A DNA stretch of 64,000 nt, taken from NCBI RefSeq assembly GCF_963576675.1, contig NC_088913.1:88845001-88909000 (forward strand). The letters are read 5' to 3'. The notes below the pieces were generated by a model. The model searched no databases. It worked only from the letters and a program-made list of their open reading frames with translations, and was not told the DNA's origin. Made by a program: the position numbers and the translations under genes. Of the stretch, positions 4,128 through 63,945 are shown one piece after another; positions within the stretch are counted from its first letter, which is position 1; every line of letters starts with the position of its first letter. This DNA comes from Euphorbia lathyris. Taxonomy: Eukaryota > Streptophyta > Magnoliopsida > Malpighiales > Euphorbiaceae.

Positions 4128-4985
4128 ATTTTGGTGATGAGGACATCTCATTCTCGAGCATGATTCCGGAGACAAGAGATGGGACACGGGAAGATCCAAT
4201 GGGGGAAGGCAAGAGCAAAGGCAGCCAACCGAACACGCGGGGCGTGCCTGTTAGTGCGCGGGGCGTGGAGGACCCTGTTTCCGGAAGAAACATCATTAGC
4301 TCTTTTACGCGGGGCGTGTCCCCTTGTACGTGGAGCGTAAACGCAGCCTCTAAAACAAAGAAAGTCCAGGGAGTCAACTACGTGAGGCGTAGCCCCGAAG
4401 ACGCCCGCGTGAGGTCCTTCAACAAGAGTCACCAGGGTCAGGAGCTCCAACACGCGGGGCGTGAATCTGGAGGCGCGGGGCGTGCTCAGCTGGAGAATAC
4501 TTCTCGTCCAAGTTCTCACCATTGGGGAACCATTTCTGCTCTTGCTTAATTACTGTTTTGCCATCACCCACAATTTACTAGACTACCATTATTTCCTTCC
4601 CTTCCCATCTTACCCTTGATTCATATGTTTTGCTAAAATCTCTATTCATGGACTTTTAGTCTTTCATCCTATGTTTAGATGGAGTATTTAAGCATTTTTG
4701 TAATGTTCAGGAACTTTTTATGAAATCAAATATCAAGCCTCTATTGGAGCTCAAGGTTCTTCCTTGTTTGGGGTTAATTAAACCTTCAAGTCTAGTTTGA
4801 GAAGATTGAAATCTTTGTGAGTTTAAGATTAAAACTCTCCATCGACTTTAATCTACATCATCTGGATTTTAAATCATAATTTAATATCGATTTATCTCAA
4901 AATTATCATAAAATTCAATTACCATATTAAAATCTTTACATTATCTCTTATACACGTCAAAAACAAAACCACCACATTATCAGCA
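4128..4985 (+). mobile_element. LTR-like fragment of an Athila-type retroelement
   Basis: The block is richer in GC than its flanks and resembles the LTRs elsewhere in the window: a GC-rich dyad array (4235-4484), then a TATA-like TATTTAAG at 4685-4692, then T-rich leader-like sequence. No primer site or coding remnant follows, so it is probably a solo or partial LTR. Both ends are uncertain. Confidence 0.4.
4235..4484 (+). promoter_or_regulatory. CGCGGGGCGTG module array, four pairs at 21-bp offset
   Basis: Modules close to ACGCGGGGCGTG start at 4235/4256, 4307/4328, 4380/4401 and 4452/4473. Every pair has a start-to-start offset of 21 bp. Three pairs are direct and one (4380/4401) is inverted. 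The same module family is found at 51.5-52.0, 53.65-53.83 and 55.4-56.05 kb. Open frames across it are by-products of the repeats. Confidence 0.75.
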
Positions 4986-24335: not shown

Positions 24336-25954
24336 TGATTCTCGTAAAGTATATAGCAATTAACAGGACAAGTGTATCCTATCGCATCAAGTAGTATTGT
24401 GCTAAGCACGAGATCGAACCACAAGGAATATTTGCCACGACTAATTAGTCTAGGGAAGAAGGCGTAATTGTTCAGGAGGTTGAATAAATATTGGAAAAAT
24501 GATTAAGCAAATGAATTTTGAAAACAAAAGACAAAAACATGTGACCGGGAGGATTTGATCCAATTGATGAAACAATCTAAGATGGGGATTCCCTTAACTG
24601 GTCTCCATGTATGATTTACTGGGATTCAGGTTTATATCCTAATGATAATTGACGGTAATCACCTAATTAACCACATTAAGACTGCCAATCTCGTGTAGTC
24701 TATTCACATGCCATCGGTTGACGGCTTGATTAGGCATATAACCTAGGTATGCAAAGCATTAGGTTGTGTGGTGATTAAGGCTAAGGCCGTAGCCCAGCCA
24801 CTAGTCCGCACTCCTAGTGGCCTCTAGCGAGGTCAGATTATTCTCATTCGGATTAGGTAGTTCCTTGGTCAGGTACTCACCTATCTATAATCCTACATTT
24901 GTCAGAATCAAGGCTTTAGGTTCAGCAATTCCGGGCTAGTTGATCATCATCGAATCTCATTCTAACTATAATCCTAGTTCTGACAAATCCAGGTCACTAG
25001 GCCTGCATAATCTGATCAATTGGGAATAATCCCATAAACCCAAATCCCTAATCATTCAAGGTTACACAATCAATCTCATCCCCATCCCAGATTGGATGGG
25101 GATTAGTTCATAATTAAACTAATCAAATCACTGAAGCACATATTATCAACATGAATCGTCATTAATCAAATAAGTAAGAAAAGTAAGAGACAGATTGAGG
25201 GATTTAGAAATCTAAAACCCGGCTTTGTCTGATTCTGATTACAAAATTGATAGAACTCTCCTCACCAATCTTCAAGCAACAACAATTACAAGGTGAGAAA
25301 CTAAAAATCTCCTACTAAAGAAAACAAAAAGGGAGAAAGAGTAGGTAGAGAAGCCAATCCAGCAAAAAGCAAAAAGTAACCGCCACAAAAGAGGCATCAT
25401 GTTCCCTTTTTAGTGCTAGGTGTGTTAGGGGGGTATTTTGGACATTTTTCGGGCCAAGATTCGCGCCCTGGAGGTGAGAAGACGCTGGGAAATTGCTTCC
25501 CAGCGTCTCGTCTCGTCGAGACAAGAGGTGTCTCGATGAGACGAAAGGGTGTCTCGATGAGACACTGGGCGTCTCATCGAGACACCACGTGATGGTTCCC
25601 TTTGGGAACCATCAGCCCGCCACGTCTCACCGAGACAGGCTGTGTCTCGACGAGACAAGGGCCTGTCTCGCCGAGGCAGACACTGTCTCGGCGAGACAGG
25701 TGCTGAAAAAGGGCAGTTCCCTCCGGAAGTTATCTGTTTTGGTCCATGTGCTTCCAGAATTTGCTCTAGTGGTCCCCGAACTGTCCGGAAATGCTCAAGC
25801 AGTCCTAAAAACACCTGAAAATACAGAAAATGCCATAAGTAACGGACATTACTGATTTTAACTAAAAATAACAAAATGATACTGAGATTGAATGGAAATA
25901 AAGAAAAAACGAACTAAAATAATCCTAAAAACCCTATATAAATGGGAGCTATCA
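24336..25954 (-). mobile_element. solo LTR of an Athila-type family, minus orientation
   Basis: Plus-strand ends TGATTCTCG and AGCTATCA (TGAT...ATCA), flanked by CCAGG (24331-24335) and CTAGG (25955-25959), a 5-bp duplication with one change. The gag frame of the host Tat element is continuous when the LTR is ignored, which confirms the boundaries. Orientation follows from the terminal segment (CAAGTGTATCC...ATCAAGTAGTA) read on the minus strand, matching the ends of the LTRs at 9956 and 50635. No internal sequence remains, so it formed by LTR-LTR recombination. Confidence 0.8.
25509..25698 (-). promoter_or_regulatory. array of eight TGTCTCG-N-CGAGACA dyads at 20-21 bp spacing
   Basis: Fifteen-bp near-palindromes start at 25509, 25529, 25550, 25570, 25623, 25643, 25664 and 25684. 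Within each group of four the offsets are 20, 21 and 20. The array lies about 260-450 bp into the LTR on the minus strand. No clean TATA box follows; CTAAAAAGG near 25410 is the best candidate. The open frames spanning the array are repeat artefacts. Confidence 0.8.
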
Positions 25955-26141: not shown

Positions 26142-27723
26142 TAAGTGTACCCCATCGTTATCAAGTAATAAATTTCTGGTTAAGTCCAGGTTATCGTCCA
26201 CAGGATTTATTTCTGCAAGTATCGAGCTACTCGGTTTCAGGTGTTATCTAGGCTTAGGGGGTTTTGAGTTGGTTTTGCTAAGTTAATCTACTCCTAGGTT
26301 GAATTATACTAATCCTAGCTAAGTTATCTGATTCTAACTAAGTTATTCTATGCCTAATTAAGTTACTCTACCCCTAATTGAGTTAAACTACTCCTAATTG
26401 ATCTTTCGCTAATGCAATTATCCGAAGGAACATGGTATGAATGATAGTAATGAAGATAGATTACTAGGTCTATTGAATAAAAACCTAATCTGAGTCACTT
26501 GTATTCAAGGCGATTAACCCTACTTACCCTCCTAAAGTTCCTAGCGCGTGATTCCCTAAGGCCGAAACTAGGTCTAAGGCTCAGTAAATTGGCGCTTAAT
26601 CAACTAAGAGGTCGTCAATCTCCTAGGCTCTGACTAGGTCAGATTCAGCTCGCAATATGTGCCTACTAGATTTTGGGGCTTTTGAATAAGTTAAACCAAT
26701 TGAACAAAGCGTAAGACAGAGATTAGACAAATAATCATAGAACAAAACAAGAGCTAAATTATTATTAAAGACGAAGATAAATGTCACAAGATACAATAAG
26801 TTAAGTTCGGCAACTGTATCAAAGAGTACAAACAAGGAAAGATAAAAGAAGATATAAAAATCCCTTTCAGGGAACCTGTTTACTCTGCATCCGGCGACTT
26901 AATCTTAAGGACGGACCTTGATAATTCCTCGAGAAAAAGCTTTGAAGGAGCTTCAATGGAGGTCGAAGAAGATGGAGGAGATGGAGAGGAATTATAAGGG
27001 GAAAGCTAAGATAATTTACAAAAACGAAAGATATCTAATTTACATTGGAAAACTCTATTTATAGGCGTGGCTCGGCCCTATTTTCGTGTCCTTATTGGTG
27101 TAGGAAGTCGTGGGGTCCATCGTGGCTTTGTGGGGGCGGAATTGGTCTTTTTGACCAATTCCCGCAGGTCTGCTCGCCGAGCAGGGCGAGCTGCTCGGCG
27201 AGCAGGGCTACTCACGACGAGCAGTGCCCTGCTCGGCGAGCAGGCATCCTGCTCGCCCGAGCAGGCCTCTGATGTCCTGCTCGGCGAGCAGGCATGGCCT
27301 ACGAAGGCCCGCTCGTGGAGCATTTTTGCCCGGTATGCCCCCGCGTGCTTGTTGACTACCGTCGATGCCTTTTTCATCCAAACTTATACCTGCGCACGTA
27401 CAGAAACTCCAGATAACATTAGTCCAAAGGCTAAATTGATCCGCCAATCGCTTATTTTGAGCAAACGCTTCGTTGGTGCGACTTTTGACGGACCAATTAG
27501 CTTCAAAAGATAACGGAATTATACTATGCATGCTATTTTGGTCGTAATTGCCTAGATTGGTCATAAAACGAGCCTAAACAACGAAAAATAAATAAAACGT
27601 TTCCAATTCCTAACTAACTCGCACAAAAGCATTTAAATGCGAGAAATGCTCGCTTATTAACTAAATAAAGCTAAAACTCGTCCTAAAACCGTACCCAAAG
27701 ATAGGGGTTTTTGACCCCTATCA
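26142..27723 (-). repeat. 3' LTR of the nested Athila-type element
   Basis: On the minus strand it begins TGATAGGGGT and ends near GGGGTACACTTATCC, about 1580 bp. The exact outer end is ambiguous by 1-2 bases because of the AGGGA repeat. It contains the CTGCTCG dyad array and a TATA box (CTATAAATAG, 27056-27065, minus). Confidence 0.8.
27056..27323 (-). promoter_or_regulatory. CTGCTCG-N-CGAGCAG dyad array upstream of the LTR TATA box
   Basis: Seven modules start at 27170, 27191, 27210, 27229, 27249, 27277 and 27309 (offsets 21, 19, 19, 20, 28, 32). Four are perfect or near-perfect 15-bp palindromes. On the minus strand they lie about 105-260 bp upstream of CTATAAATAG (27056-27065). Confidence 0.8.
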
Positions 27724-29500: not shown

Positions 29501-29690
29501 GCCCAGCGGCGGGCTGCGCGGCAGTGCCCAGCCGCAGGCTGAGCGCAGTGGGCGCAGTGCCCAGCGGCGTGCTGGGCGCAGTGCCCAGTGGCGGGCTGGG
29601 CGCAGTGCCCAGCGCGCAGCGCCCAACGGCGGGCTGGGCGCCAGCTCGCGGCGAGCTGGGCGGCAGTGCCCAGCTGGGCGAGCTGGGCCT
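29501..29690 (-). repeat. GCCCAGC-GGCG-GGCTGGGC tandem dyads
   Basis: About seven copies of a 19-bp dyad start at 29501, 29526, 29559, 29583, 29607 (partial), 29621 and about 29640, most 24-25 bp apart, in a 200-bp GC-rich island within AT-rich sequence. It is in the internal 3' region, not the LTR. Alanine/arginine-rich frames across it are artefacts. Confidence 0.8.
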
Positions 29691-31164: not shown

Positions 31165-31169
31165 AGGGA

Positions 31170-33273: not shown

Positions 33274-34440
33274 ATGATCAAAGGAAACCAAAAAGTTGCT
33301 CAGGAGACGTATTCGGCTTCCTTGATGATCCGCCCGCAGTCTAAGGATGAAGAAGAGAAAGACCTTGCCGTAATGGCTATGGGTGAAATAGAAATGTACC
33401 TTATGGCGGATGAAAAACAGGTACGAATTATTAGGGGACTAAAAGGAGAGATTAAGGAATCCATTACAAAGGTTCTCCGTGAGTCGGATGATGTTTTTGC
33501 ATGGAAGGACAAAATCCTCCAAGGGATTAGTCCGGATGTAATCACTCATAAACTCAATATCACCGAGGATGCAGTCCCGATAGCACAAAAACGGAGGAAT
33601 CATGGTCTTGAGAGGCAGAAAGTAATAGAAGAGGAGATTTCTAAACTCAAAAAGTCGGACGCCATTGAAGAAGTATTTTACAAGCAATGGCTAGCGAATG
33701 TGGTACTAGTCAAAAAATCAGGCGGATCGTATCGCATGTGTATTGACTTCACTGATCTCAATAAAGCTTGTCCCAAAGACAACTACCCACTACCATGTAT
33801 TGATATTCTAGTAGATGGAACCGCGGGACATGCCATGTATTCCTTCACTGACGTGAAGTCAAGCTATCACTAGATCCCGATGGAGCCTTCAGACAGGATC
33901 AAAACTTCGTTCGTGACTCACCAGGTGACCTATTGCTTTAAGGTCGTGCCCTTTGGGATTAAAAATGCAGGGGCAACCTACCAACGGATGATGAACAAAA
34001 TATTCGAGGAAAGCAAAGGTGATAACTTTTCTATCTACGTAGATGATATGATCATCAAGAGTACCACTGTGGAAAAGCATGCAGATGACATAAAAGAGGT
34101 CCTGGGAGTGCTCCGTCATCATAACATCAAGTTGAATCCGGAGAAATGTACTTTTGGGGCGACGTATGGAAAATTCCTGGGATTCATGATCAGCCAGAAA
34201 GGGGTGAGCCCAAACCTAGACAAGATTAAGGTTGTTTTGTATATGAAGACACCACAGAACGTTAAAGAGGTGCAGCGTCTTAATGGGCGTATTGTGGCCT
34301 TGGGCAGGTTTATCTCATGTTCAGCCCGTAGGTGTCAACCCTTCTATGAGGTGATTAAAAAGCAAAAGGCATTCAAGTGGAACGCGGATTGTAAGCAAGC
34401 TTTTGAAGGGATTAAACGCTTCCTCACGGAACCACCTCTC
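33274..34440 (+). pseudogene. Tat reverse transcriptase
   Basis: Open except for a TAG at 33871 where relatives have Gln in SSYHQI. Landmarks: WLANVVLVKKSGGSYRMCID, then FTDLNKACPKDNYPLP, VPFGIKNAGATYQRMM, and the catalytic YVDDMIIKS. The thumb/connection follows (FLGFMISQKGVSPN). The gypsy-type RNase H that normally follows is missing: the frame passes from FLTEPP directly to the aRNH start. Confidence 0.92.
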
Positions 34441-34848
34441 GAAGAATGGACGATGTACACTGATGGAGCCTGTTTGGCTGAGGATGCGGGTATAGGCATC
34501 GTGATCAAAGGGCCGCAATATATAAAATTGCACTATGCAGCAAAATTGGACTTCCTCGCAACCAACAATGCAGCAGAGTACGAGGCCCTAATATTGGGAC
34601 TACGCTTATTAAAAGAAATTACTCCTGAGTGGGTCGTGATCTATAGTGATTCCAAGTTAATGGTCAACCAGGTAATTAAAAATTTTGAGGTGAAGGATGA
34701 CATCTTGGCTAAATATGTTGAAGAGGTCAAAAAGTTGTTGAACTACCTCGAAGTTAAAGAAACCAAGTGGGAGCTAGTCCATGTGCCAAGAGGATCTAAC
34801 ACAGAGGCTGATCACCTAGCTAAAATGGCTTCAAGAAAGGAACACTAG
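34441..34848 (+). pseudogene. Tat archaeal-type RNase H (aRNH)
   Basis: Catalytic residues appear in order: D in YTDGAC, E in NNAAEYEALILGL, D in IYSDSKLMVNQV, D in GSNTEADHLAKMAS. This extra RNase H is a Tat-lineage feature. In frame with the reverse transcriptase; ends in a TAG at 34846, after which the same frame continues into integrase. Confidence 0.88.
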
Positions 34849-36852: not shown

Positions 36853-38904
36853 TTAAACAGGAGAATTTTTTCCCGCATCTTTCACAATAAATGCGCCCTC
36901 TGCAGTAAGAGCTCCTCTTGGAGAAACGATGCTCTCAATCAACTCATTGCTACTGTCATCCGCCTTGCCATCTGTCTTGTCATCCGCCTTCAAGGATGCT
37001 TCACTAGTATCTTTGGATTCGAGATCAATGACGGGTTTGGTCTCTTCGATATATCCAATCATCACCTTTCGGATGTGATCACGGATGAAATCATGAACGT
37101 TCGGGATCTTGCGATATTTGAGGACAACTTCGACATCCGGAACAACATACTCTGGATCCTCGAAATCAATCTCAGGATGAGCAAGCCGGATGTACTCCAT
37201 GATCCACTCTCCGTAATAATATGCACGCTCTCCAGCCAGGATCTCTGCATCAACTAAAGCATCCTTATGATGCTTATCATCATCCTCCATCTTCTCCTTC
37301 AGACGGAGAATCTCTGCGTCTTTACTCGCGTTCAGAGCAATAGCAGAGGTGACATTTGTATTAGCCACTGCAACTTCTTTCTCCAGCCTCTGAATAGTTG
37401 CCTTATCCGCTACCCCTTGCTACACTTCCGCTTCCAAGGAACGCATGTGTGTATATGCCTATCAAAAGGGAACACACGTCAGCTCACTTTCATCCGAGTG
37501 ATATAAAATTTAAAGAGGGGCAAACTCACCAGAAGAAGTTCCCTTTTTTCCCATCATTGTATGGGCGGATCTGGAGGACGTACTCAGATCATCTTGCGCT
37601 TCGGCGAGTTGACCAAGGGCCTCGTCAACATCATTAATGACGGATTCATCATTCACAGACCCTTTTCAGCCAAATCTAGCAAGCCAGTAATTCCCCAGGT
37701 CAGGTTTCGCCACCTAAGTAAAGAATAAGAAGCAAATGGTTAAGATTCAAGCAAAAAAAAAAGAGAATGCAATAGGATGAATACCTTCTCCAGAGCCCCC
37801 ATTGGCTTTTCAGCCCTAATAGCATCCGCTATTAACTTCCCACTACCCGGCATTCCAGATCTCCTCTTCTTTTGTAGGGGAAGATCTGCAACATCGGCAA
37901 CATGACGCTTTCCAGAGTTCTGGAGGGGATCCACCACTTGCTTGTCTTTTTGAGTCACTTGAGCCGCCTCCTCCTTCTTCTTTTTGCGCATCTCTACAAG
38001 GGCACGACTTGCCTCAGATAAACCCCTGACAAGGGAACAAAAATAATCAAAAGGAAAGAACTAAGGTACCTTCTTCAAGATGATAAAACTTGACATAAGT
38101 AAGCTCTTTTCCTTCACGGCAAATTAGGGGAATGTCATTCAGCATGAATTTCAGGGCGTCGGCGTATGTCCAAGCATCCGCCTTAATGCTTTTCATAAGG
38201 TCTGCCACCTCCTCATCACTATATGTCAATATACGCAGATCCCCGCCCATGTGAGGGGGTTTAGCATTCCAAACTGAAGGGAATCCCAGAGGCTCTTCCT
38301 TCTTCACTTTGACAAAGAAAAACTTTTTGTCCCAGAGATGGACGTTTGACATCTTTCTGTTGAAAGGCGAATAAGACTTGAACTTGACGAACGTGTAGAA
38401 AGACTCAGATTTCCGCTTTGTAGGTTTATGAAGGAACCGAAAGACACGGGGATTACAGACGACTCCTAAGTTTGAAGCCAAGAAGCATTCCAAAGCCACA
38501 TCTAACCAACCATTTGGATGTAGCTGACTGACGGTGATATCAAAGTACGCCAGGATATCAGCTATCATCTAGGGAATAGGAAGGCAGAACCCTCTCTCCA
38601 TGTGGCAACTATATACCGACAAATATCCTAATGGCGGACAGGCGGGTCGCTGATGTGCATCCGCCAAACTAGTCTCATAATTTTTAATCCACGAATAGCG
38701 ATCCGCCAAATCAGCTAGATCTGCGGCGCTCATGCGAGATGGGGCGGATTCCGCTCGAGGCACCTTTTTCCTATTGGGAGCTGAGGTTGAAGCCTCCATC
38801 CCGAAAAGTCTCCTAGAATCTATAGTCGGAGTTTTACGGGTCCCGACGGTGGGAAAAATTCGAGTTCTAACTAAATGGGTTCTACGATTCCTACTCTTCT
38901 TCAC
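36853..38904 (-). pseudogene. antisense accessory gene of the Tat element
   Basis: On the strand opposite pol, between integrase and the 3' LTR, four segments form a gene-like series. 38904-38047 is one frame with a TAG at about 38571; its core (SQLHPNGWLDVALECFLAS, SFYTFVKFKS, KKFFFVKVKKEEP) resembles the plant 'putative gypsy type transposon' domain (PF04195-like). A Lys-rich segment (37992-37740) and a coiled-coil segment (37368-36853, ILRLKEKMEDDDK) follow. GT/AG borders are visible (GAAG|GTACC near 38070; TTGTCAG near 38025) but the phases do not join, so either the intron model is wrong or a frameshift exists. Extra antisense ORFs are known in Tat-lineage elements; function unknown. Confidence 0.7.
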
Positions 38905-44994: not shown

Positions 44995-45660
44995 TACGAC
45001 TGTAAATGAGCCGAACCGCTCATGAATGGTTCGGTGATCGGTTTGATAAAAGCTTGGTTCGATTTGTAAACGAGCCGTTCGTGAACATAATTTATTGACT
45101 CGGTTCGTAAACGAGTCGAGTTTTCGAAAGCTCACGAACAGGCCCGATTAGAACATTTATTAATAAATTTTAGTGTTATAGAAAAATTATATAGTTATGT
45201 GTTAGTTCACAAATATCTAAACTTAATTTGATATTAGATGAGTTCGTTGACAAACATAATAAATGAGTAATAGACAAACAATTTGTAAACATCTTGTTTA
45301 TTTATTCACAAACTTTCTTTGTGAAATTGTTTATGTACACAATTAAAAAGTTATTTGCGAGCAAAGTTCAAAAATATAATTAACGATTTACTCACAAATA
45401 ATTCATGGTTAGATAATTTTCTTAATTAACCAAGTCCAAAAAGAATTTTGGACTCAAAACAAACTCGAAGCTCGGCTCAAGCTCGTTGAGCAAGCCAAAG
45501 CTCGGCTCAGACTCCGCTCAAGCTCGTTGAGCAAGTCAAAATTCGGCTCGGCACGTTAATTTTATAGCAAGCTCGGCTCGGCTCGAGCTCGTTAATTTTA
45601 TAACGAGCCAATTTTGAACAGGTTAAAGCTCGACTCGACTCGGTTAGATTACAGTCCTAT
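44995..45660. mobile_element. TIR element with GAGCTCGGCTC words
   Basis: Ends GACTGTAAATGAGCCGA and TCGGTTAGATTACAGTC are inverted. Sub-terminal regions are packed with GCTCGGCTCAAGCTCG and ACGAGCCG words, probable transposase-binding repeats. Interior AT-rich, no ORF. Target duplication unclear, so superfamily not assigned. Confidence 0.55.
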
Positions 45661-51046: not shown

Positions 51047-52241
51047 CAAAACAAGTAACAAACATCAACACATATATAGAGAAAGAGATTATGAATCATA
51101 AATTATAAATATGGAAAATGTAAATATGAATTACAACCAAGCCTAGTACATAGGATGAGATCAAGCTAATTAGCAAGTGTAGAGGTAAGAATCCACCCTC
51201 GGAACTAGCTAACCGGACTCAAAGCTGTCTCTTAGGACTTGGATGGTGGAGCTCTCGAGCTTGGTGTACGGAGGTGGAGCGGAACTTTGATGGAATGCCG
51301 GGATCAACGAACAAGCTCTCAAGGTGGAAGAGTTTGGCTATATAAAACCTAAAAAAAAAAAATCTAAAACTACAAATGACAAGAGTTTAATTAAATGTAA
51401 GGTTTCTAAGATGTTTATTGGTGTGTAAATGAGTGCTAGTCACTCTTATTTATACATCAGGCTAAGTGTAAGATTGTAATTCCATAAGGTGCAAGCATGT
51501 AGGAACATGATTTTGTACAAAAATCCCATAATATGCCCCGCGTATGGTGGTACACGCCCTGCGTATTTGCCCATTCCGTCAGAAATCTCCTGTATATGGA
51601 CCAATTCTAGATCTTATTGTCTCAAACACGCCCCGCGTAGACTGGGATGCGCCTCGCGTGTTTGAGTCTCTGACTTTTTATTGCTTGAATTTGTCCTTTT
51701 ACGCCGCGTGTAGCTGAGGCACGCCCTGTGTAAATGAGTCTCTGATATTTTTGTGTTGAGGAACTTCCTTGCACGCCCCACGTGTAAGGTGGTACACCCT
51801 GCATATGGATAGTTGACTCAAGGAGACCATGCAGTCTGACTTTCAGGATTAGGCTAATCATTTCTGACATATGTCGTACGCCTCGCGTAGGATGGTATGC
51901 GCCTCGCGTATGCTGACTAGATCCCACGTGGTGCTTGTGGATAGGGTAATTATTTCTGACTTAATGTTTCACGCCCCGCGTAAGGAATGAGGCGCCCCGC
52001 GTATTGTGGTGGATTTTCACTCCTTGCTCGTACCTGAAATACAAATCTCGAGAGCGAGTTAGTTTGATGTTTTATTTCCTAAATTAATCAAAAACAAGGA
52101 AAATTAACCGAAAGTACAGAATTTATTTTTATTTCATTATTTTATTAAAACACTCTATTTTTGTAATTAAACTTATTTATTTCTTCTAAAATTAATCCGT
52201 AAATCACGCTAAAAGATAGGGGTAAAATACGCCTATCAAAC
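51047..52241 (-). repeat. 3' LTR of the minus-strand Athila-type element
   Basis: Starts (minus strand) TGATAGGCGTATTTTACC next to the polypurine tract. The distal end is near 51047 but was not fixed. A minus-strand TATA box GTATAAATAAG lies at 51446-51456, downstream of the module array. Confidence 0.65.
51533..52009 (-). promoter_or_regulatory. six paired CGCCCCGCGT modules upstream of the LTR TATA box
   Basis: Direct pairs start at 51533/51554, 51628/51649, 51701/51721, 51773/51794, 51878/51899 and 51971/51992. Offsets are 21 bp in five and 20 bp in one. Pairs repeat every 70-105 bp. All lie upstream of GTATAAATAAG on the minus strand. Confidence 0.85.
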
Positions 52242-53640
52242 CTCCTTGGACTTTAAAGTTTTACTTGTCCTCAAGTAAAAGAAATCGAAAGACAAGGGAT
52301 TGAGATTATTAAGAAACAAACCGTCAGTTGGTTTTACCAAGTGCGTGATTTCAAAGTTGAATTTTTATGCAAAGCTTTCGGTAAGTACCTACGCAAACAA
52401 TCGAGTGACCAAAACTTGTTTGAAACCTCCATAATCAAAATTAATAGGCAATATTAACGAGGGTCGATTATCTTTTGAGAACCCGATAGTACCTCACCAA
52501 GGGATTTCACTCTTACACTCAAATTTTGGTGGGTCGGTGTTTTAGCACTCTTCTTTGCACTTACTCGAGATCACTTTGAGTTTGCATTTTCATCCGGGTT
52601 TTTCCTCCTATGTTATGGTCTTGGCAATATTAAAAATGAACCTGGAGGGGGTTGTAATGTGGGTGGCTTTTTAGTGGTTAGTTTTTTAAAACTCGGGTTT
52701 AAATACCATTTTAATGATCGCACCGTATTTTTATTTTGGCCTTGGCGATTTCATACGATACACTCAAAATTGCTCGGGTGGAGCTTGAAAATGCCTTTTG
52801 CTCTTTATTGTGTTTTTGGTCCTTACTTGTCAAGGCCTTTGGCTTATTTCGGGTACGACTTGATTTTGTTGGTATTTAATCTAGAGGAAAAAGGGTCAAA
52901 TGTTAAATAGGGTGTTAACAAAAAGTTGGTTAATAGGCTCGAGGGGGTTTCCTAGAGGTTAATGAAAACGAGAAAAATAATTTAAGACAAGGATTAGACT
53001 AAGTGGATTCGTTTCATCATCTATTGCCATTTTAACCAAAATAAGTGTACTAAACCAGGTATTAGGTGCAAACTCTATGAGTCGAGTGAAGTCAAAGCTC
53101 TCGAAAATTGTGAAAGAAATAGAGTTCTCATACGAACTCTTTTAGGCTAAAAAATATCTCACAAAAGATTCGGGTTATATTGTGTACTATCGAGTCTTCG
53201 CTAAATTTTCAAACATCCCGTTTTTATTGCCTTTTTAAGTTTCATTATGGAGATGACATGTGGGTTAGGACTCAATGCTCTTGTTTAGTATCACCTAGGC
53301 TTTGCATAAATTCTACAACTTCAAAATTAAGACTAAAATTTCTTACAAAAACCGATCCTTTATGTCGACGTCTTTTTATTTTAACGACAAATAACGGAAC
53401 TTTAGATGATTTCCGAGGGAGGTAGTGTGTCGGAAAAATTTAAGAATTGATAAATTAGTTTAATTATTTTGTTGTTTATTTGATTTTTATTTTTGTTTTT
53501 GTTAGTGCAAAACAAACTGAAAGTGCGGGATTGCACGGCCCTCCGCGTTATTAAAATGACGTCTATTCCAAGGACGTCGCGAAAGAAAAGAAGACAAGAA
53601 CAAAAATAAAAGGTGAATGAAAATTAGAATTAGACCCTAG
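52242..53640 (-). other. 3' non-coding region of the element
   Basis: Homologous in outline to 27724-29450 (ACCTCACCA..., GGTTGTAATGTGG). Small plus-strand frames (52659, 53180) show no domain. Ends at the TTACTTGAGGACAAGTAAA and polypurine motifs next to the LTR. Confidence 0.6.
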
Positions 53641-53653
53641 GGGGTCAGGTCCT

Positions 53654-53832
53654 ACGCGAGGCCTGCCCAGAGGGGCGCCCCGCGTGGGAGGCGCGATTAT
53701 TGCTCTTTTTGGGTCAGAGGCTCAAATACGTGGGGCGCAGTAGGAGGGGCGCCCCGCGTGTTTGAGTTTCTAGACTTTTTAGTCAGGGAAATGGAGAGCA
53801 CGCGGGGCGTATAAGGGGGGTACGCCCTGCAT
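53654..53832 (-). repeat. three inverted CGCGGGGCGT pairs downstream of the ORF
   Basis: Pairs start at 53654/53675, 53728/53749 and 53800/53822, offsets 21, 21 and 22 bp. Arms are inverted, so each pair can fold as a hairpin. Confidence 0.8.
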
Positions 53833-53980
53833 GAATTTATTGATGGGTTGAAATAGCAAAAATAAACACGAAATGAGAACGAAACATAAAAGAAAATTAA
53901 AAATATATTGAAACGGAAAAGAAAGTACACTAAAAACAAAGAAAATATAAAACAAAGAAAAACATAAAAAGAAATGGAAA

Positions 53981-55216
53981 CTATGGTTGAGGTGGAGGGG
54001 GATTGCCATGGATGTTGAAGTAGGAGGTGAAGGAGTTGGTGAGGGCATCGAAGCGAGCATCGAGATGGACCCGATCCTCACATTGTTGTGCTTCAATGTT
54101 GTTGAAGCGGGTGATGTAGGTGGAGTGGTCCATGAGGCGATTAGCCTTAAGGGTGTCGAAACAAGTGTTGATGGAGGCGAATTGTGAGTCGTAGTGGGCA
54201 CAATCGGCCCGTTGGTAGCCCTCCAAGGCGTCCAACCGAGCATAGATGGAATTGAAGTCGTGGTTGGGTGGAGGATTGAAATTTAGGCCCATATCCGAAT
54301 CCAAACCCGAACCCCCTTCCTCGTGAGAGTGGGCCGCCCCCGAAGTTTCACCCGGGTCCGAAGTGGGGCACTTGAGTGACTTGAAGGCATTCTTGTCCAC
54401 GGGCCGAGACCCAAGACTTGGGAGGTGCTCAAGGGCAGCCTCGCCAAGAGCGGAGGTGGCGAAGGTAGTGATGAGGTGTCCCAACCCGATTTTGCCACGT
54501 TTTCGGGTGGAAATGTGATGGAGTTGGACAGCCACGAGGAAGGAAAGGTCGTAGGCGCGGTTGTTGGCACAATAATGGAGCGCCAAAAGTTCGTATTTGT
54601 TGACTTTGGTGGATTCGGACTTCCCTAAAAAGTAGAAGGAGATGAAGCGGTGGAGAAGTTGGAGGATTGGATCACGAATGAGGGCCGGACGGAGGTTGGA
54701 GATGTCGTAATCATCGGACCCGGTGATGGAGGTCCAAAAATCACGAGCTGAAGCATCCTCGGGCCAATGGCCGATGCCACCCTCCGTTTGACGGGTGAAA
54801 TGGTTGCGGAGCCATTGGGTGTCGATGGAAAAGGGTTGGTTATGAAGGCGGAAGTTGAAGAGGGCGGCACCGAGGATGTTGTTAGAGGTAAGGGTGGTGT
54901 AGAACTCGATCACTAGGGAAGGGTAGACATGTTGGCGGGTACAAAAATGCTCGTACCACCCGAGGGCACGAAGACGAGCTTCAAAATCGCTACCAAGATC
55001 GTAGTGATCAAGAGTGCTACGTTGGATGTATGGGGGTTCCATAATGTGGGCAGCAGAAAGGATTTGGTAGTTTTGGGCTTCCTCTTTGGTGAAGAGATTG
55101 AAAGGAGCCCGGTAAAGGTGGGTGAGTGGTGGTGTTTCTTCTCGTTCGGGTGGTGGTGGTTGTTGATTTTGGGCGGAATGGGAAGAACGGGGCCGAGTGG
55201 ACCGTGGGGGACGCAT
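53981..55216 (-). CDS. ATHILA ORF-1-like protein
   Basis: An uninterrupted 411-codon frame on the minus strand. A Pro-rich N-terminus (to about residue 30) is followed by a conserved helix-rich core: YPSLVIEFYTTL, ALFNFRLHNQPFSIDTQWL, then IRDPILQLLHRFISFYFLGK and GKIGLGHLITTFATSA, the pattern of the ATHILA ORF-1 family (PF03078-like; sequence type recognised by eye). The C-terminal third has a coiled-coil-like region (FNSIYARLDALEGYQ, repeated FDxL/ARFDAL units). No protease, RT or zinc motif. Function is unknown in the family. It has its own TATA box 115 bp upstream, with the same module array as the LTR. Intact, unlike nearly every other ORF here. Confidence 0.82.
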   Translation of the reverse strand: MRPPRSTRPRSSHSAQNQQPPPPEREETPPLTHLYRAPFNLFTKEEAQNYQILSAAHIMEPPYIQRSTLDHYDLGSDFEARLRALGWYEHFCTRQHVYPSLVIEFYTTLTSNNILGAALFNFRLHNQPFSIDTQWLRNHFTRQTEGGIGHWPEDASARDFWTSITGSDDYDISNLRPALIRDPILQLLHRFISFYFLGKSESTKVNKYELLALHYCANNRAYDLSFLVAVQLHHISTRKRGKIGLGHLITTFATSALGEAALEHLPSLGSRPVDKNAFKSLKCPTSDPGETSGAAHSHEEGGSGLDSDMGLNFNPPPNHDFNSIYARLDALEGYQRADCAHYDSQFASINTCFDTLKANRLMDHSTYITRFNNIEAQQCEDRVHLDARFDALTNSFTSYFNIHGNPPPPQP

Positions 55217-55328
55217 GTCGACGGTTTATTTTTGCCTAACCATGGTGTGATTGAGGGGTTGAGAGAATGTGGAGGAAGGTTGTGAGAAGGTTGAGGGAGT
55301 TGTGAGGAAGAAGAAGGAGAAAAGGAGG

Positions 55329-56050
55329 GATTTATATAGGGGAGGAGTGGGGAATCCAAGTAAAACTCGAATTCCCAGAGGGGTACGCGGGGCGTGAAGG
55401 GACCACGCCACGCGTATCCCTCCCCCTGATCTTTATTGACGTGAAAATGGCATGGTACGCGGGGCGTGAAGGGGAGCACGCCTCGCGTATCATGCCTCCT
55501 GCCCCTTTTGGATTGGAAAAAGGGGGAGGGCGCGGGGCGTACATGGGGGCACGCCCTGCGTAAGAGGAAGAAGTTGAAGAATTTTTTCGTTTTTTTCGTT
55601 TTCTGATTTTTAATTTTATGGTTTATGAATGTATTAATGAGTTTTTAATGATTTTATAATTTTTAAGTTTAATTAATGAGGTGGTTTAATAAAATTAATG
55701 TGGAAAGAAGGTGAAAGGATTTGAATTTGAAAGATGAAAGGTGATTGGAGGGAAGAGGAGGTGGAGTGTGGAAGTGGGAAAGATATATGGGGAAGATAGA
55801 AGAGTGATGGGAAGAGTGGAGAAAAAGCTGCCATGGGGAGTTGTAATTCACAACTCCCCGAGGATAGGCGAGGCGTGCCCTAAGGCACGTCCTGCGTGTC
55901 CTCCCACGTCGCGTTTATTTAGGAGAGGGTTAAATGCTAAAGCGTACGTGGGGCGTGGTAGGAGGGACGCCCCGCGTACCGTGTCTTTTATTGCGAAATT
56001 GAGTCAGACACGCAGATACGCGGGGCGTATAGGTGTGTACGCCCCACGTG
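55329..56050 (-). promoter_or_regulatory. promoter of the ORF-1-like gene: TATA box behind six inverted CGCGGGGCGT pairs
   Basis: CCTATATAAATCCC (55329-55340, minus) is followed by a CT-rich leader of about 85-110 bases to the ATG at 55216. Upstream, inverted pairs start at 55385/55405, 55457/55478, 55530/55551, 55866/55887, 55946/55967 and 56018/56039; offsets are 20 then 21 for the other five. Each pair can fold as a hairpin. Confidence 0.75.
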
Positions 56051-56436: not shown

Positions 56437-59046
56437 TGTTGGAAAAATAGGCTAACGTATAGCAGCAGAAATATAAAATTTTTAACCTATTTCCATAAAC
56501 CACAAGATCCGTTAATCGTTATTTCATATAAAGAGGGATAAAATAAATACCTTTCTGAAGTTCTATCTACCGTTGCAAACGAAGTGCCCACAACTCTTAC
56601 TTCGAGTTCCCGAGCACAGAACAAAACAAATATAAGATCAAGTTAGAATCAACCGTTGAATAGAAACCAAAATAGATTGCCTCTAATTAATCAACACAAG
56701 ATCAAGGATAAAGAGAGAAAGATGAAAATCAATTGAACGGAAGGAAGCGGTGAAATCTCGTCCTCGGCTAAGGGGGGTCGAATTCTCTCTCCTGGAATTC
56801 AATTGTGGATTTCGAAAATCCCTAGTAGGGGGTATTTATAATCTCTTGTATCTAAACCTTAGTTAGATAGAATTAGGTTTCTTGAATAAGAATTCAATTC
56901 GGAATAGAATTCTTAAATATTATCTATTAATATATCTAAATATAAAAGATAATAATCAATAACCTTATTGGATAATAATAGGAGTAATATAATCTAATTA
57001 AAACTCCTAACTTATTTATCCTTTAATTAATTTAATTCATAATCCTAATCTAATTAGGATTAATAAAATCAAACTAATTATTTATGTATTTACATACATC
57101 AATCCCCCCCCCTCTATTACTGGGCCTTATTGGGCTCAGTTGGGCTTCCGTCAATTAATTAACATCTGTCTCTCTTTTGGGTTCCAAGTCTTATGTGTGA
57201 CCCATTAGGTTCTTATTGCTTCTAGCCGTATGCAACTTATTAAAATTAATTTTCAAAGAATTATATTTTAATCTTTGCATAACGGAATGATGTACAGAGT
57301 ATGTGATTAGCAAGACCGTAATCATTCTCCTAGAGCTATAAGAAGACAGGTTGATTCTGTCGTTGACCTTTCAGCATTAGTTACGGTATAATTCGATCCT
57401 TCATCAACTACGTCCTTGAACTAAATCTTATGACTATGGGTAATGTCAAGTCACATATAGTGAGACGTTCGTTTTACTTGTTCTTGGCCGAGTCAACTCC
57501 AATTAGATAGGTTAAGAGAAATCTGTATTTCAATCTTAAGCTATCACTTTGCAAGGATTTAGAGTCAAGACTTCCACAAGCGATCCATGGACATATCTCC
57601 CATTTATCGGGAGTGATAAATGCTCAATCCAATATATAAAGATCCCGCAGTCACTTCCTGTGATACCCAACCTCTGCTGTTCACACCCCAGAGTCATCTC
57701 TGTTAAGTATCGTGTTACAACAGGATTAAAGCGTCACATTCCGTAATCCAGAATACCAATTAACATTCCTTTGAGTCTGGGGATTATTTATACCTATTAA
57801 TACCATTGAGATGAACAGATGACAAGGATGAATCTACCCATCCTGTTATCTCAAGTCGGGTCGCCCATCCTAATGAACTACTTTTCATCGGATCCATGTA
57901 ACTGTCCAGATATCTATATATATGAAGCTTGTGAGATCAGCTTTCTGTCGGACATAAGACATTGTTACATGCAAGTCTCAACAGTGATATGTCAATCCTA
58001 AACATATTACTTGACTTGGGGTGGTTTTAAGTTTATTAGTTTATTATAAAGTTTTGTCTCACTTCATGCTTGTATGAACACTTTATAATCACTTTAAAAT
58101 AAACTTACGGATTTCCTTTTATTAGGCTTTATTTAGTGCTTAAAAGGGATTGCCTTAATATATAGTTATAAAACATATATCTCATTAAAACAAATGATAT
58201 AAAGAACACTTCATTTACATTAAGTTTGTATCCTAGAACAATTGTCTATAGCACACTAAACCCCAACATACTCCCACTTGGACTAAAGACAATTATTTCT
58301 ATAACTTATCCCAGTAGAAGTTAGATGACGATCATGTACTTTCTGGGTTAAGGGCTTTGTCAACGGATCTGCAACGTTGTCCCCTATAGGTACTCTTTCT
58401 ATTTTCACATCTCCTCTTGCCATAATTTCTCTTATAATGTGGTATCGCTTAAGGTAATGCTTGGACGCATTATGAGACCGTGGTTCCTTTGCTTGCATAA
58501 TGGCTCCATTGTTATCACAATACAGTGTAATGGGATTTACAATGTCAGACACCACACGAAGTTCAGCAATGAACTTCCTAATCCAAACTTCTTCCTTTGC
58601 TACTTCCGCAGCAGCGATATACTCTGACTCGGTCGTAGAGAAAGCTACGCTTCCTTGCTTAGAACTCTTCCAGCTGACCGTGCCCCCATTCAAGATAAAC
58701 AGGTATCCTGATTGGGATTTAAAATCGTTCTCATCTGTGAGATGACTTGCGTCTGAAAATCCTTCTATTTTCAGATCTCCTTCTCCGTACACTAGAAACA
58801 TGTTTTTAGTTCTTCTCAAGTACTTAAGAATGTTTTTGACGGCAATCCAGTGCTCATCTCCCGGATTTCCTTGGTAACGACTCGTTATAGATAACACGAA
58901 GGCTACGTCAGGTCTAGTGCATAGCATAGCATACATAATAGAATCGGTTGCGCTGGCGTACGGGACTACATCCATGCGCTTCTTATCATCATCGGTTTTA
59001 GGACATTAATGATTGTTTAACTTTACTCCATGTATCATGGGTAAGT
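56437..59046 (-). mobile_element. copia element A, 3' end only (minus orientation)
   Basis: 3' LTR 56437-58268 (plus strand TGTTGGAAAAATAGGC...AAACCCCAACA), then polypurine tract CCAAGTGGGAGTA (minus) and RNase H coding sequence up to 59046, where copia element B begins. Confidence 0.85.
58283..58975 (-). pseudogene. copia A RNase H region
   Basis: 230-codon frame: YAMLCTRPDVAFVLS, then HWIAVKNILKYLRRTKNMFL (end of RT), GFSDASHLTD, STTESEYIAAAE, YCDNNGA and NVADPLTKPL of copia RNase H. The frame ends in TAG next to the polypurine tract. Upstream an in-frame TAA (about 59008) replaces a Gln codon present in element C. Confidence 0.88.
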
Positions 59047-60465
59047 TGAAGGAAATTAAGGCTAAGGTATAGCAGCGGAAATATAAAAATTTTAGCCTAC
59101 TTCCTTTTAACCATAGGATCCGTTAATCGTTATTCAATATAAAGAGGGATAAGAAGGAATACCTTTTGTAGAACAATCTACCGTTGTTAAAGAAGCGCCC
59201 ACAGTTCTTCTCCGAGTTCCCAAGCACGAAGTATAACACGGTGAGGTTAAGTTAGAATCAACCATATGAGATGCAACCAAAATAGATTGCCTCTAATTAA
59301 CCAACACAAGATCAAAGAGAAAGAAAGATAGATGAAATTAATCGGATGGAAGCCGTATGAATTCTTGTCCACGAACTAGGGGATGCAAATTCACTTTCTC
59401 TCTCTAATTGTATGTTTCGAAAATCACAATAAGGGGAGGGATTAGGCTTAGTCGAAATTCATGTAGTAGGGGGGTATATAATACTATATATAATAACTTG
59501 TATCTAAACCCTAGTTAGATAGGAATATGTTACTTAATAGGAATTCAATTCGGAATAGGATTCCCAATTATTATCTTATAATATATCTAATATATCTAGG
59601 ATAATAATAAATAACCTAATTGGATAATAATAGGAGTATATTAATCTAATTAAAACTCATAACTTAATTATCTCTTAATTAATTTAATTCACAAACCTAA
59701 TCAAATTAGAATTAATGGAATTAAAATATTTCCTAATTTATTATATATAAATTTTGGCCACCCCTAATTGAATGGGCCTTACTGGGCTCATTTGGGCTTC
59801 CATCTATTAATGACACCCATATCTCTTTTGGTTCCAAGTCTTCTGTGTGATCCATTAGGTTCTTACTACTTCTGGCCGTATGCAATTAAATTAATTTCTT
59901 CAAGAATTATATTTAATCTTTGCATAACGGAATGATGTACTGAGTATGTTATTGGCAAGTCTGTAATCATTCCCCTAGAGTCCGTTAAGAAAACAGGTTG
60001 ATTCTGTCGTTAATCCTTTCGTATTAGTTACAGTATAATTCAATCCTTTATCAACTACATCCTTGAACTGAATCTTATAACTATGGGTGATGTCAAGTCA
60101 CATATAGCGAGACGTTCATTTTACTTGTATAGGCCGAGTCAACACAAATAGATAGGTTAAGTGAAATCTGTATTTCTTACTCTTAAGCTATCACCTTGCA
60201 AGGATTTAGAGTCGAGTCTTCCACAAGCGATCCTTGGATGTATCTCCCATTAATCGGGAGTGATAAATGATCAATCCAATGTATAACTACCCTGACATTA
60301 CCTCATGTGACACCCAACCTTTGCAGTTCATACCCTAGAGTCATCTCTGTTAATGAGATGAACAGGTGACAAGGATGAATCTAACCATCATGTTATCTCA
60401 AATCGGATCCCCAATCCTAATGAACGACGTTTCATCGAATCTATGTAACTGTCCAGATATCTATA
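59047..60465 (-). mobile_element. copia element B, partial LTR
   Basis: TGAAGGAAATTAAGGC starts a copy of the same LTR family, inserted in the RT/RNase H of element A. About 65 bp present in A and C are missing near 60350. It is cut at 60465 (after CCAGATATCTATA) by element C. Confidence 0.85.
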
Positions 60466-62532
60466 TGAAGGAAATTAAGGCTAAGGTATAGCAGCGAAAA
60501 TATAAAAATTTTAGCCTACTTCCTTTTAACCATAGGATCCGTTAATCGTTATTTCATATAAAGAGGGATAAGAAGAAATACCTTTCGATGAACAATCTAC
60601 CGTTGTTAAAGAAGCGCCCACAACTTCAAAAGAGATGTAAACTGTTTACCAATCTGCCCCTATTCGAAACAGACCTTCCAAACCTCCGAACGACAATCCC
60701 TTCGGTGGAAACATGGAAGAATATGTCTAGAAGCTACTGTCCAAAAATCGCGACGATCCGACGGTTCAATCTCCGGAAATCCTCGAAATAGTGAACTGAC
60801 CTGATGTAGGCGAAGAAAAACGAATTTCTCCCTTTTGATTGTTTTTCTTCTTTCGTGAACACGGTGAGATTAAGTTAGAATCAACCCTTATGAGATGCAA
60901 CCAAAATATATTGCCTCTAATAAACCAACACAAGATCAAAGAGAAAGAGGGATGAATAAGATTAATTAATCGATGGAATGCCGTATGAATTCTTGTTCAC
61001 GAACTTGGGAATAGAATTCTTTTTCTCTCTCTAACTAAGCAATTTCGAAAATCACTTTAGGGGAGGGTAGAGGCTTAGTCGAAATTCACTATAGGGGGGT
61101 ATATATATTAGCTTGTATCTAAACCCTAGTTAGATAGGAATAGGTTACTTAATAGGAATTCCATTCGGAATGGGATTCCTAATTATTATCTTATAATATA
61201 TCAAATACATTTAGGATAATAATAAATAACCTAATTGGATAATAATAAGAGTATATTAATCTAATTAAAACTCCTAATTAAATTATATCTTAATTAATTT
61301 AATTCATAATCCTAATCTAATTAGGATTAATGAAATAAAATTAATTCCTTCCTAATATATATAAATTTCGGCCCCCTCCTAGTATTTGGGCCTTACTGGG
61401 CTTAATTGGGCTTCCATCTATTAATCATATCCATCTCTCTTTTTGGTTCCAAGTCTTATGTGTGATCCATTAGGTCCTTACTACTTCTGGCCGTATGCAA
61501 CCTATTAAATTAATTTCTTCAAGAATTATATTTAATCCCTTGCATAACGGAATGATGTACAGAGTATGTTATTGGCAAGTCCGTAATCATTCCCCCAGAG
61601 TCCGTTAAAAAGACAGGTTGATTCTGTCGTTAACCCTTCCGTATTAGTTACGGTACAATACGATCCTTTATCAACTACATCCTTGAACTGAATCTTATGA
61701 CTATGGGTAATGTCAAGTCACATATAGCGAGACGTTCATTTTACTTGTTATTGACCGAGTCAACTCAAAAGATAGGTTAAGTGAAATCCGAATTTCTACT
61801 CTTAAGCTATCACCTTGCAAGGATTTAGAGTCGAGTCTTCCACAAGCGATCCTTGGATGTATCTCCCATTCATCGGGAGTGGTAAATGCTCAATCCAATG
61901 TATAACTACCCTGACATTACCTCATGTGACACCCAACCTTTGCAGTTCACACCCCAGAGTCATCTCTGTTAAGGATCGTGGAACCACGCGATCAAAGTCT
62001 CACATTCAGTAATTCAGGATGACCAATTAACATTCCTTTGAGTCTGAGGATTAGTTATACTTATTAATACCAATGAGATGAACAGGTGACAAGGATGAAT
62101 CTACCCATCCTGTTATCTCAAGTCGGATCCCCAATCCTAATGAACAACGTTTCACCGAATCTATGTAACTGTCCAGATATCTATATATGTGAAGCTTGTG
62201 AGATCAGCTTTCTGTCGGACAGAAGACATTGTTACATACAAGTCTCAACTGTGATATATCAATCCTAAATATATCACTTGATTTGGGGTGGTTTTAAGTT
62301 TATTAGTTTATTATAAATTTTTGTCTCACTTCATGCTTGTATGAACACTTTATAATCACTTTAAACAAACTTACGGATTTCCTTTTATTAGACTTTATTT
62401 AGTGCTTAAAAGGGATTGCCTTTGTATAGTTATAAAACATATATCTCATTAAAACAAATGATATAAAGAACAATTCATTTACAATAAGTTTGTATCCTGC
62501 AACAATTGACTATAGGACACAAAACCCCAACA
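60466..62532 (-). repeat. 3' LTR of copia element C
   Basis: TGAAGGAAATTAAGGC...AAAACCCCAACA, 2067 bp, longest of the three copies because of the extra segment. Open frames at 61815 and 62086 correspond to frames at 57549 and 57819 in LTR A and are not genes. Confidence 0.88.
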
Positions 62533-62539
62533 TACTCCC

Positions 62540-63191
62540 ACTTGGACCAAAGCCAATTGTTTCTAAAACTTATCCCAGTAGAAGTTAAATGACGATCATG
62601 TACTTTTTGGGTTAAAGGCTTTGTCAACGGATCTGCAACATTGTCCTCTGTAGGTACTCTTTCTATTCTCACATCTCCTCTAGCCACAATCTCTCTAATG
62701 ATGTGGTATCGCTTTAGGTAGTGCTTGGATGCATTATGAGACCGTGGTTCCTTTGCTTGCGCAATGAATCCATTGTTATCACAGTACAGAGTAATGGGAT
62801 TGACAATGTCAGGCACCACACCTAGTTCTGTAATGAACTTTCTAATCCAAACTGCTTCCTTTGCTGCTTCCGCAGCAGCGATGTACTCTGACTCGGTCGT
62901 AGAGAAAGCTACGCTTCCTTGCTTGGAACTTTTCCAACTGACCGCGCCCCCATTCAAGATAAACAGGTATCCTGATTGGGATTTAAAATCATTCTCATCC
63001 GTGAGATGACTAGCGTTTGAAAATCCTTCAATTTTCAGATCTCCTTCTTCGTACACTAGGAACATATCTTTAGTCCTTCTCAAGTACTTAAGAATGTTCT
63101 TGACGGCAATCCAATGCTCGTCTCCCAGATTCCCTTGGTAACGACTCGTTACAGATAACGTGAACGCTACATCGGGTCTAGTGCATAGCAT
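62540..63191 (-). pseudogene. copia C RNase H region
   Basis: Same domain order as in element A (GFSNASHLTD, STTESEYIAAAEAAKEAVW, YCDNNGF, NVADPLTKPL). The stop used in A is TGG here, so the frame would run on through the polypurine tract into the LTR (to 62475). Separated from the upstream reverse transcriptase by a 5-bp deletion at about 63185. Confidence 0.88.
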
Positions 63192-63945
63192 ACATAATCG
63201 AACCGATCGTGCTGGCGTACGGGACTACAGCCATGCGTCGTTTGTCATCATCAGTTTTAGGACATTGATGATTGTTTAACTTTACTCCATGTACCATGGG
63301 TAAGTTACCTCGTTTCGATTCAAGCATGCTAAACCGATTTAGCACCTTTTCAATGTATGTAGCCTGTGAAAGACGAAGCAGTCTACGCGATCTATCCCTA
63401 TAGATCTTTATACCAAGTATATAGGCTGCTTCACCGAGGTCTTTCATTGAGAAGTTACCGGATAACCATATTTTCATTGACTATAAAAGAGCAATGTCAT
63501 TTCCCATTAACAGTATATCGTCCACATATAGTATGAGAAATGCTATAGAGCTCCCATTTGCTTTCTTGTAAATGCAAGCTTCTTCGCAATTCTGTTCGAA
63601 ACCAAATTGTTTTATGGTTTCGTCAAAACGCTTGTTCCAGCTTCTAGATGCTTGCTTGAGTCCATAAATGGATCTCTGATGTTTGCAAACTTTATTTGCA
63701 TCCTTTGATATGAAACCTTCAGGTTGCATCATGTATACATCATCAAGCAGGTTTCCGTTTAGGAAAGCTGTTTTCACATCCATTTGCCAAATCTCATAAT
63801 CAAAATGAGCGGCAATTGCAAGCATGATTCTGATTGATTTGGACATAGCAATGGGAGAGAAGGTTTCGTCATAATCAACACCTTGTTTTTGACGATATCC
63901 TTTCGCTACCAACCTAGCCTTGTAGGTGCTAACCTTTCCATCCAT
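63178..63945 (-). pseudogene. copia C reverse transcriptase, broken
   Basis: Two frames in line: 63945-63481 with KARLVAKGYRQKQGVDYDET, YEIWQMDVKTAFLNGNL and the catalytic LYVDDILLMG, then a TAG at about 63479, and 63477-63178 with FSMKDLGEAAYILGIKIYRD and LSQATYIEKVLNRF. The frame fails at YAMH, where one ATAGC unit is missing relative to element A. Confidence 0.9.

Follow-up and report, generated by a model that had tools for sequence, protein, structure and literature searches.

Why should a retroelement carry the same short palindromic box, repeatedly paired at an almost constant offset, both in its long terminal repeat (LTR) and around an additional gene? The question is raised by an Athila-like Ty3 retroelement on the minus strand of a 64-kb window of the Euphorbia lathyris genome (the whole stretch that was analysed, positions 88,845,001 to 88,909,000 of contig NC_088913.1), which comprises an LTR and, upstream of it, a gene resembling open reading frame (ORF) 1 of Athila, hereafter ORF1. 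The element contains 15 pairs of an 11-bp GC-rich box (ACGC-GGG-GCGT): six in the LTR, six upstream of ORF1 and three downstream of it. An original prediction, made from the letters of the sequence, had described these pairs and proposed that they are binding sites for a protein dimer or pair, kept by selection, that co-regulates two transcripts. We recovered all 15 pairs with the placement, coordinates and offsets it had given. Absent from it were the dyad nature of the box itself, the recurrence of the pairs every 72-74 bp and the presence of the same array in a second LTR of the window (4135-4860). The explanation that we favour, with modest confidence, is that the boxes form a multimerised set of sites at which a dimeric DNA-binding protein acts on the LTR and ORF1 promoters of this Athila-like Ty3 element.

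The analysis covers one genomic copy of the element, whose promoters were judged by eye; all of its features lie on the minus strand. By eye, a purine-rich stretch is followed by the LTR start TGATAGG (52231..52260, with the T at 52238). The array in the LTR U3 (51533..52002) consists of six direct pairs, with starts at 51533/51554, 51628/51649, 51701/51721, 51773/51794, 51878/51899 and 51971/51992, and a possible decayed third box with four mismatches (51919..51929) lies 20 bp from the box at 51899. The nearest box lies 78 bp upstream of a TATA-like word (51447..51454). Six inverted pairs precede ORF1, three of them in a proximal array (55385..55561; 55385/55405, 55457/55478 and 55530/55551) and three in a distal one (55866..56049; 55866/55887, 55946/55967 and 56018/56039), and another TATA-like word (55331..55338) lies 46 bp downstream of the nearest box. 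The last three inverted pairs are located downstream of ORF1 (53654..53832; 53654/53675, 53728/53749 and 53800/53822). Two of the element's three box regions precede TATA-like words. The start-to-start offsets are 21, 21, 20, 21, 21 and 21 bp in the LTR, 20, 21, 21, 21, 21 and 21 bp before ORF1, and 21, 21 and 22 bp after it, that is, 21 bp in twelve pairs, 20 bp in two and 22 bp in one.

The assignment to Athila rests on ORF1 (53981..55216, 411 aa), which matches Pfam PF03078 (ATHILA) over residues 50-213 with an E value of 3.2e-6 and 26.7 bits, against a cut-off of 20.2. The position of this PF03078 gene upstream of the LTR start agrees with the Athila-lineage trait of an ATHILA ORF-1 protein before the 3' LTR. 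In the ORF1 frame, an ATG at 55243 precedes a stop codon, and the long frame begins at 55216.

The boxes occur far more often than expected by chance. Allowing up to two mismatches, we detected 11 of the 12 LTR boxes (the box at 51794 has three), 12 boxes before ORF1 and 6 after it; on average, 100 dinucleotide-preserving shuffles of each region gave 0.09, 0.22 and 0.12 boxes, respectively. The second LTR has 7 such boxes against 0.02 in shuffles, and the counts are about 50-fold or more above shuffles in each of the four regions. In fact, 36 out of 38 hits in the window fall within these regions, with two elsewhere in the 64 kb. Box pairs 20-22 bp apart number 17 in the four regions, whereas 5,000 random placements gave a mean of 1.8 and a maximum of 8. 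The five box arrays are also rich in CpG, with observed-to-expected ratios of 1.01-1.38 and a GC content of 0.50-0.64, compared with a CpG ratio of 0.82 for the window.

The consensus of 38 boxes (30 from the element and 8 from the second LTR) is ACGCGGGGCGT. Each box is a hyphenated dyad in which ACGC and GCGT arms surround a GGG centre, and 124 of the 152 arm cells are symmetric over the 38 boxes. The difference between the direct and inverted pairs of the original prediction rests solely on three central bases, the second centre being GGG or CCC; a dimeric protein binding the arms need not distinguish between them. The units used for this and the following identity, lattice, spacer, deviation, CpG and length-change counts were taken by hand from the box scan. 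Oriented boxes have a mean pairwise identity of 0.80 (38 boxes, second LTR included), whereas the linkers reach 0.36 against a composition expectation of 0.33 (12 of the 15 element linkers, those 10 bp long; 3 of 19 linkers, second LTR included, have other lengths and were omitted), and the element flanks are 28-30% identical against 26-27% expected. Therefore, the boxes are at least not neutral leftovers. The original prediction held that linkers as conserved as the modules would speak for simple recent tandem duplication; they are 36% identical against 80% for the boxes. Since the linkers are near background rather than box-like, simple recent duplication is wrong as an explanation, and any duplication must be old.

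The way in which the boxes deviate from the consensus carries a further signal. Of the 40 deviations that 37 boxes show, C-to-T and G-to-A changes make up 27, comprising 18 of the 20 at CG positions, 7 of the 9 at CHG and both of those at CHH (for these and the CpG counts, one of the 38 boxes, the second of the pair at 4380, of inverted type and one base short, was omitted). This dependence on CG and CHG contexts looks like methylated-cytosine decay, and the copy was, therefore, probably silenced in the past. The three CpGs of the box share the transitions unevenly, the first having 4, the middle one 12 and the last 2 in the 37 boxes (p 0.009), and 4, 10 and 2 in the 30 boxes of the element (p 0.039), p values that are optimistic because the boxes are related by copying. 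Uneven CpG loss of this kind argues for selection on the outer dyad, with the outer arms mattering more than the middle.

The second LTR is a probable solo LTR of a different family (4135..4860, plus strand, 726 bp, TG...CA, nearly identical 5-bp flanks TTTGG and TCTGG, bounds by eye). Its array (4235..4483, plus strand) has direct pairs at 4235/4256, 4307/4328 and 4452/4473 with a period of 72-73 bp. A fourth pair, formed by the box at 4380 and the inverted-type box near 4401, which was placed by hand, has the same 21-bp offset, and this LTR accordingly mixes direct and inverted pairs. Outside the boxes, there is no clear similarity to the Athila-like LTR: the best alignment scores 26, compared with a mean of 20.2 and a maximum of 29 in 200 shuffles, and a blastn self-comparison of the window joined nothing between the two LTRs among matches of at least 60 bp. 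Two other Athila-looking LTR pieces score 26 and 25 against the same LTR (shuffle maxima 32 and 34), likewise without clear similarity, so that LTR sequence alone cannot separate families. The array common to both LTRs may stem either from shared ancestry, with similarity lost elsewhere, or from transfer of the array, and the question of promoter exchange between families is thereby raised.

The pairs mostly recur every 72-74 bp, with other intervals of 80, 93, 95 and 105 bp. Among boxes with up to two mismatches, distances of 120 bp or less concentrate at 20-22 (17 cases), 51-53 (9), 72-74 (19) and 93-95 bp (12), and a few occur at 59, 80, 101, 105, 114 and 116 bp. The 12 boxes of the LTR array share one 10.4-bp lattice (R 0.94, p 0.0025, assuming that inter-pair intervals are free between 65 and 110 bp), and p is 0.009 when one value is used per LTR interval class. 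The lattice, spacer and length-change analyses leave out the 304 bp that separate the proximal from the distal array before ORF1.

Palindrome arrays are not confined to this box. An Athila-looking LTR carries an array of another palindrome, TGTCTCGNCGAGACA (25509..25698, minus strand), with steps of 20, 21, 20, 53, 20, 21 and 20 bp and an R of 0.96 at 10.3 bp. A third palindrome, CTGCTCGNCGAGCAG, is irregularly spaced in another such LTR (27170..27323, minus strand), where position 27264 was placed by hand for the phase analysis, guided by TRF. A fourth, GCCCAGCNNNNNGCTGGGC, forms an irregular internal array (29501..29679, minus strand) between direct LTR-like copies at 27276-27723 and 30717-31165, which belong to the element carrying CTGCTCGNCGAGCAG. 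The Athila label of the TGTCTCGNCGAGACA and CTGCTCGNCGAGCAG elements rests on the LTR start TGATAG and their general look, by eye; on that labelling, palindrome arrays are common among the Athila-looking elements of the window and a tidy lattice is not universal. In an unbiased count of GC-rich dyads over the window, the TGTCTCGNCGAGACA, CTGCTCGNCGAGCAG and GCCCAGCNNNNNGCTGGGC arrays rank first to third and the ACGC-GCGT box arrays lower. The GC-rich segment 44101-44350, which is not LTR-like by eye, contains several dyads (7 in one count) and scores equal to the solo LTR.

A mechanism for the favoured explanation can be outlined as follows. The unit would measure about 72 bp and hold two hyphenated-dyad boxes of 11 bp (ACGC-NNN-GCGT) spaced at two helical turns; it would have multiplied by duplication inside the LTR U3 and come to lie on either side of ORF1. 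Each box may bind a dimer of a DNA-binding protein, of host origin or, less likely, encoded by the element; two dimers on one helix face may bind cooperatively, and the bound pairs could drive or de-repress the promoters of the genomic RNA and of ORF1 alike. Co-regulation of the two transcripts, which the original prediction also proposed, is inferred from position alone. We count in favour of these binding sites that the boxes are far above chance and nearly confined to four regions while linkers and flanks drift, that two of the element's three regions stand before TATA-like words, that the outer CpGs are spared, that the LTR boxes keep to a 10.4-bp lattice, that the identical box, offset and period recur in a second LTR otherwise without clear similarity, that a different palindrome shows steps of 20-21 and 53 bp in a third LTR, and that palindromic repeats have been described at the same placement in Sireviruses (PMC2829016). 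If one regulator acts through the boxes, the retroelement couples its genomic RNA and its additional gene to a single input. The arrangement also makes it possible to test, with a simple reporter, what GC-rich palindromic arrays do in plant LTRs.

Plain tandem duplication is the most serious of the rivals and a real, if lesser, possibility: the pairs and their offset would be left over from copied 72-bp units, with a spacing devoid of function, whether or not the boxes themselves matter. Several observations weigh against the binding-site reading, many of them in favour of duplication. The constant offset is explicable by duplication; 72-74 bp are the commonest distances and those of 3, 4, 6 and 8 turns are absent, as expected of copied units rather than free phasing. 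Linker and spacer lengths change equally per base: in the element, 3 of 15 linkers and 7 of 11 spacers have changed, giving rates of 0.020 and 0.016 per bp, and inclusion of the solo LTR brings these to 0.0158 and 0.0157. The distal pre-ORF1 array does not fit the lattice, its pair at 55866 being degenerate (two mismatches per box) and the accompanying 80-bp interval off the lattice; with that interval kept, the lattice p is 0.07. The CTGCTCGNCGAGCAG LTR also lacks a 10.4-bp lattice (R 0.17; 0.85 at 9.8 bp), and no promoter was seen after the boxes downstream of ORF1. Residual similarity above z 2.5 (mononucleotide shuffles) is found in 11 of 91 spacer comparisons, such as L4-L5 (z 5.5), L2-L3 (z 3.6) and L2-Q2 (z 5.8), and in 5 of the 15 between the LTR and the solo LTR, which supports duplication; the other 80, including all three within the solo LTR, show none, and copying of every unit is not established. 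Several units nevertheless resemble old two-box duplicates of about 72 bp, and the 21-bp offset may, therefore, simply be inherited. A search for the box-pair pattern elsewhere retrieved 1 and 0 stretches in viral contigs and 21 in prokaryote genomes; two of these 22 (L001 and L012), inspected in part, have boxes in short head-to-tail repeats of GC-rich DNA that looks unrelated by eye, demonstrating that plain tandem repeats can space boxes at 20-22 bp. What duplication does not readily account for is the high identity of the boxes beside near-background linkers and the fact that three of the four spacer changes of at least 3 bp (+20, +22 and +32 bp) are near whole turns, the fourth (+7) being the exception. 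The spacing suggests selection on helical phase, and the constant offset and the lattice were probably inherited in large part. Given this probable inheritance and the equal rates of length change, we do not regard the phasing argument of the original prediction as demonstrated. Its claim that the sites are kept by selection is supported by the conserved boxes, their spared outer CpGs and the LTR lattice; for the 21-bp offset itself, selection is at most suggested. Its observation that the linkers vary in sequence is confirmed, and per base their length is kept no better than that of the spacers.

An element-encoded regulator seems unlikely to us. In this alternative, ORF1 or another Athila protein would bind the boxes and thereby activate the element or counter its silencing, in the manner of VANC proteins on VANDAL elements, with box and protein co-evolving by family. 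Three different palindromes in three LTRs that are or look Athila-like, and boxes on both flanks of ORF1, are consistent with it, as is the case of VANC21, whose 9-base target motif accumulates through tandem repeats within the non-coding regions of its own element (described in the sections consulted of PMC5735166). However, the box is also present in an LTR of another family, which, barring capture of the array, favours a host factor common to both, and the Pfam search of ORF1 returned PF03078 only, with no DNA-binding domain. The protein had no match up to E 10 among PDB sequences, no relative at E <=0.001 among 5,739 candidates in the protein collection and no second copy in the window, where tblastn returned ORF1 itself alone; its AlphaFold2 model, predicted for the protein alone, was uninformative (mean pLDDT 35.8). 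A narrower form of the favoured explanation, with a CAMTA-type CGCG-box protein as the host factor, we hold to be improbable. It gains from the use of ACGCGG/CCGCGT as a CAMTA element (PMC7491182, in the part consulted) and from the location of 16 of the window's 21 such words in the 1,259 bp of arrays, and loses from the exact ACGCGG being present in 14 of 37 boxes only and the CGCG core in 23 of 37; moreover, box positions 4-6 are the least kept save the last base (32, 31, 28 and 31 of 38, respectively). The least probable alternative is a hairpin or small-RNA feature, whereby inverted pairs would form stems in RNA or single-stranded DNA, attracting small RNAs or shaping RNA processing. Judged from the sequence, the inverted pairs could give 11-bp stems with loops of about 10 nt, and palindrome-rich LTR regions of maize Sireviruses are reported as small-RNA mapping hotspots (PMC5311732, in a passage citing Bousios 2016). 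Nevertheless, 16 positions in the nine inverted pairs deviate in one arm and 1 in both alike, so that compensation is nearly absent, and the six LTR pairs are direct and unable to form that stem; we rate the idea low because paired changes are lacking.

A broader extension of the binding-site explanation appears doubtful at present: Athila-type Ty3 elements would have their own Sirevirus-like palindromic-box system, families would swap the palindrome yet keep the lattice (about 2 and 5 turns), so that a multimeric protein assembled along a single face of the DNA would link LTR and extra-gene promoters, and whole arrays would move between unrelated LTR families.

Other features of the window lie around these arrays. 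Repeats of AGCTCGTTGAGC / GCTCGGCTC with a 41-bp period occur at 45465-45600. A minus-strand ORF (38047-38568) has a weak match, below cut-off, to Transposase_28 (PF04195) and lies near a plus-strand ORF (33880-34848) with reverse transcriptase and RNase H domains; the Transposase_28 domain is reported in antisense ORFs of Retand elements in the sections consulted of PMC11963269. No pol of the Athila-like element was identified within the window. Its upstream side, from about 56.4 kb, is adjoined by repeated blocks at 56441-63306 that are 79-96% alike and look Copia-like by eye, and an ORF within them (58283-58975) has no Pfam match.

Repeated boxes that control an LTR promoter are not without parallel. 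In the Tnt1/Retrolyc family (Ty1/copia), repeated U3 boxes reportedly control the LTR promoter, and their sequences differ from the box described here; we know of no second array at an internal gene in that family. The VANC target motifs of VANDAL elements are likewise short motifs multiplied by tandem repeats in non-coding parts of mobile elements, but VANDALs are DNA transposons, and the VANC21 motifs, which share a single orientation, have a known binder encoded by the element (PMC5735166, in the same sections). Retand elements have tandem arrays between pol and the 3' LTR, although the consulted sections describe no array common to the LTR U3 and a gene promoter (PMC11963269). The main text of the Diaspora paper, as retrieved, contains no word starting with palindrom or tandem (PMC1142308), and our literature search, which covered titles and the starts of abstracts, with thin coverage of subscription journals, brought up no palindromic arrays in Athila. 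The 10-mer CGCGGGGCGT occurs in six published papers; in one of them, the lettuce fluorescence in situ hybridization probe Oligo-ls350 contains the 11-bp consensus once (PMC11598091, in the part consulted).

The closest counterpart is the Sirevirus system of Ty1/copia, as described in the sections consulted of Bousios et al. 2010 (PMC2829016). Sireviruses carry palindromic repeated motifs in the LTR upstream of the TATA box, called Sirevirus-specific relative to the classic retrotransposons compared, and in env-bearing members further motifs precede env (77 of 79 linker copies). As in Sireviruses, the boxes are short palindromes rich in GC and CpG that recur numerous times in the upper LTR ahead of the TATA box, with a sequence that varies between elements. 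Sirevirus boxes delimit CpG islands, with which the GC content of 0.50-0.64 and the CpG ratios of 1.01-1.38 of the five arrays here may be compared. Where at least eight palindromic copies per element define the Sirevirus motif, we count 30 boxes with the ACGC/GCGT dyad, and the upper-LTR placement is matched at 51533-52002, before a TATA-like word recognised by eye. The additional Sirevirus copies precede env; here, six pairs precede ORF1, which may or may not encode an envelope protein, and three pairs follow it. Unlike the Sirevirus motifs, these boxes lie in an Athila-like host (PF03078, Ty3) and have an ACGC-GCGT core instead of CGG-CCG, from which Sirevirus Tnd-1 is likewise an exception; they are also paired at a distance of 21 bp, for the most part within units of 72 bp, and section 9 of that paper gives no pair spacing. 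On its sequence anatomy, the arrangement works like the Sirevirus system without membership of it, with another superfamily and another core. The design is extended to an Athila-like element, and pairing is added to the known anatomy of palindromic boxes. If the favoured explanation is true, one design arose or was kept in both the Ty1/copia and Ty3 lineages.

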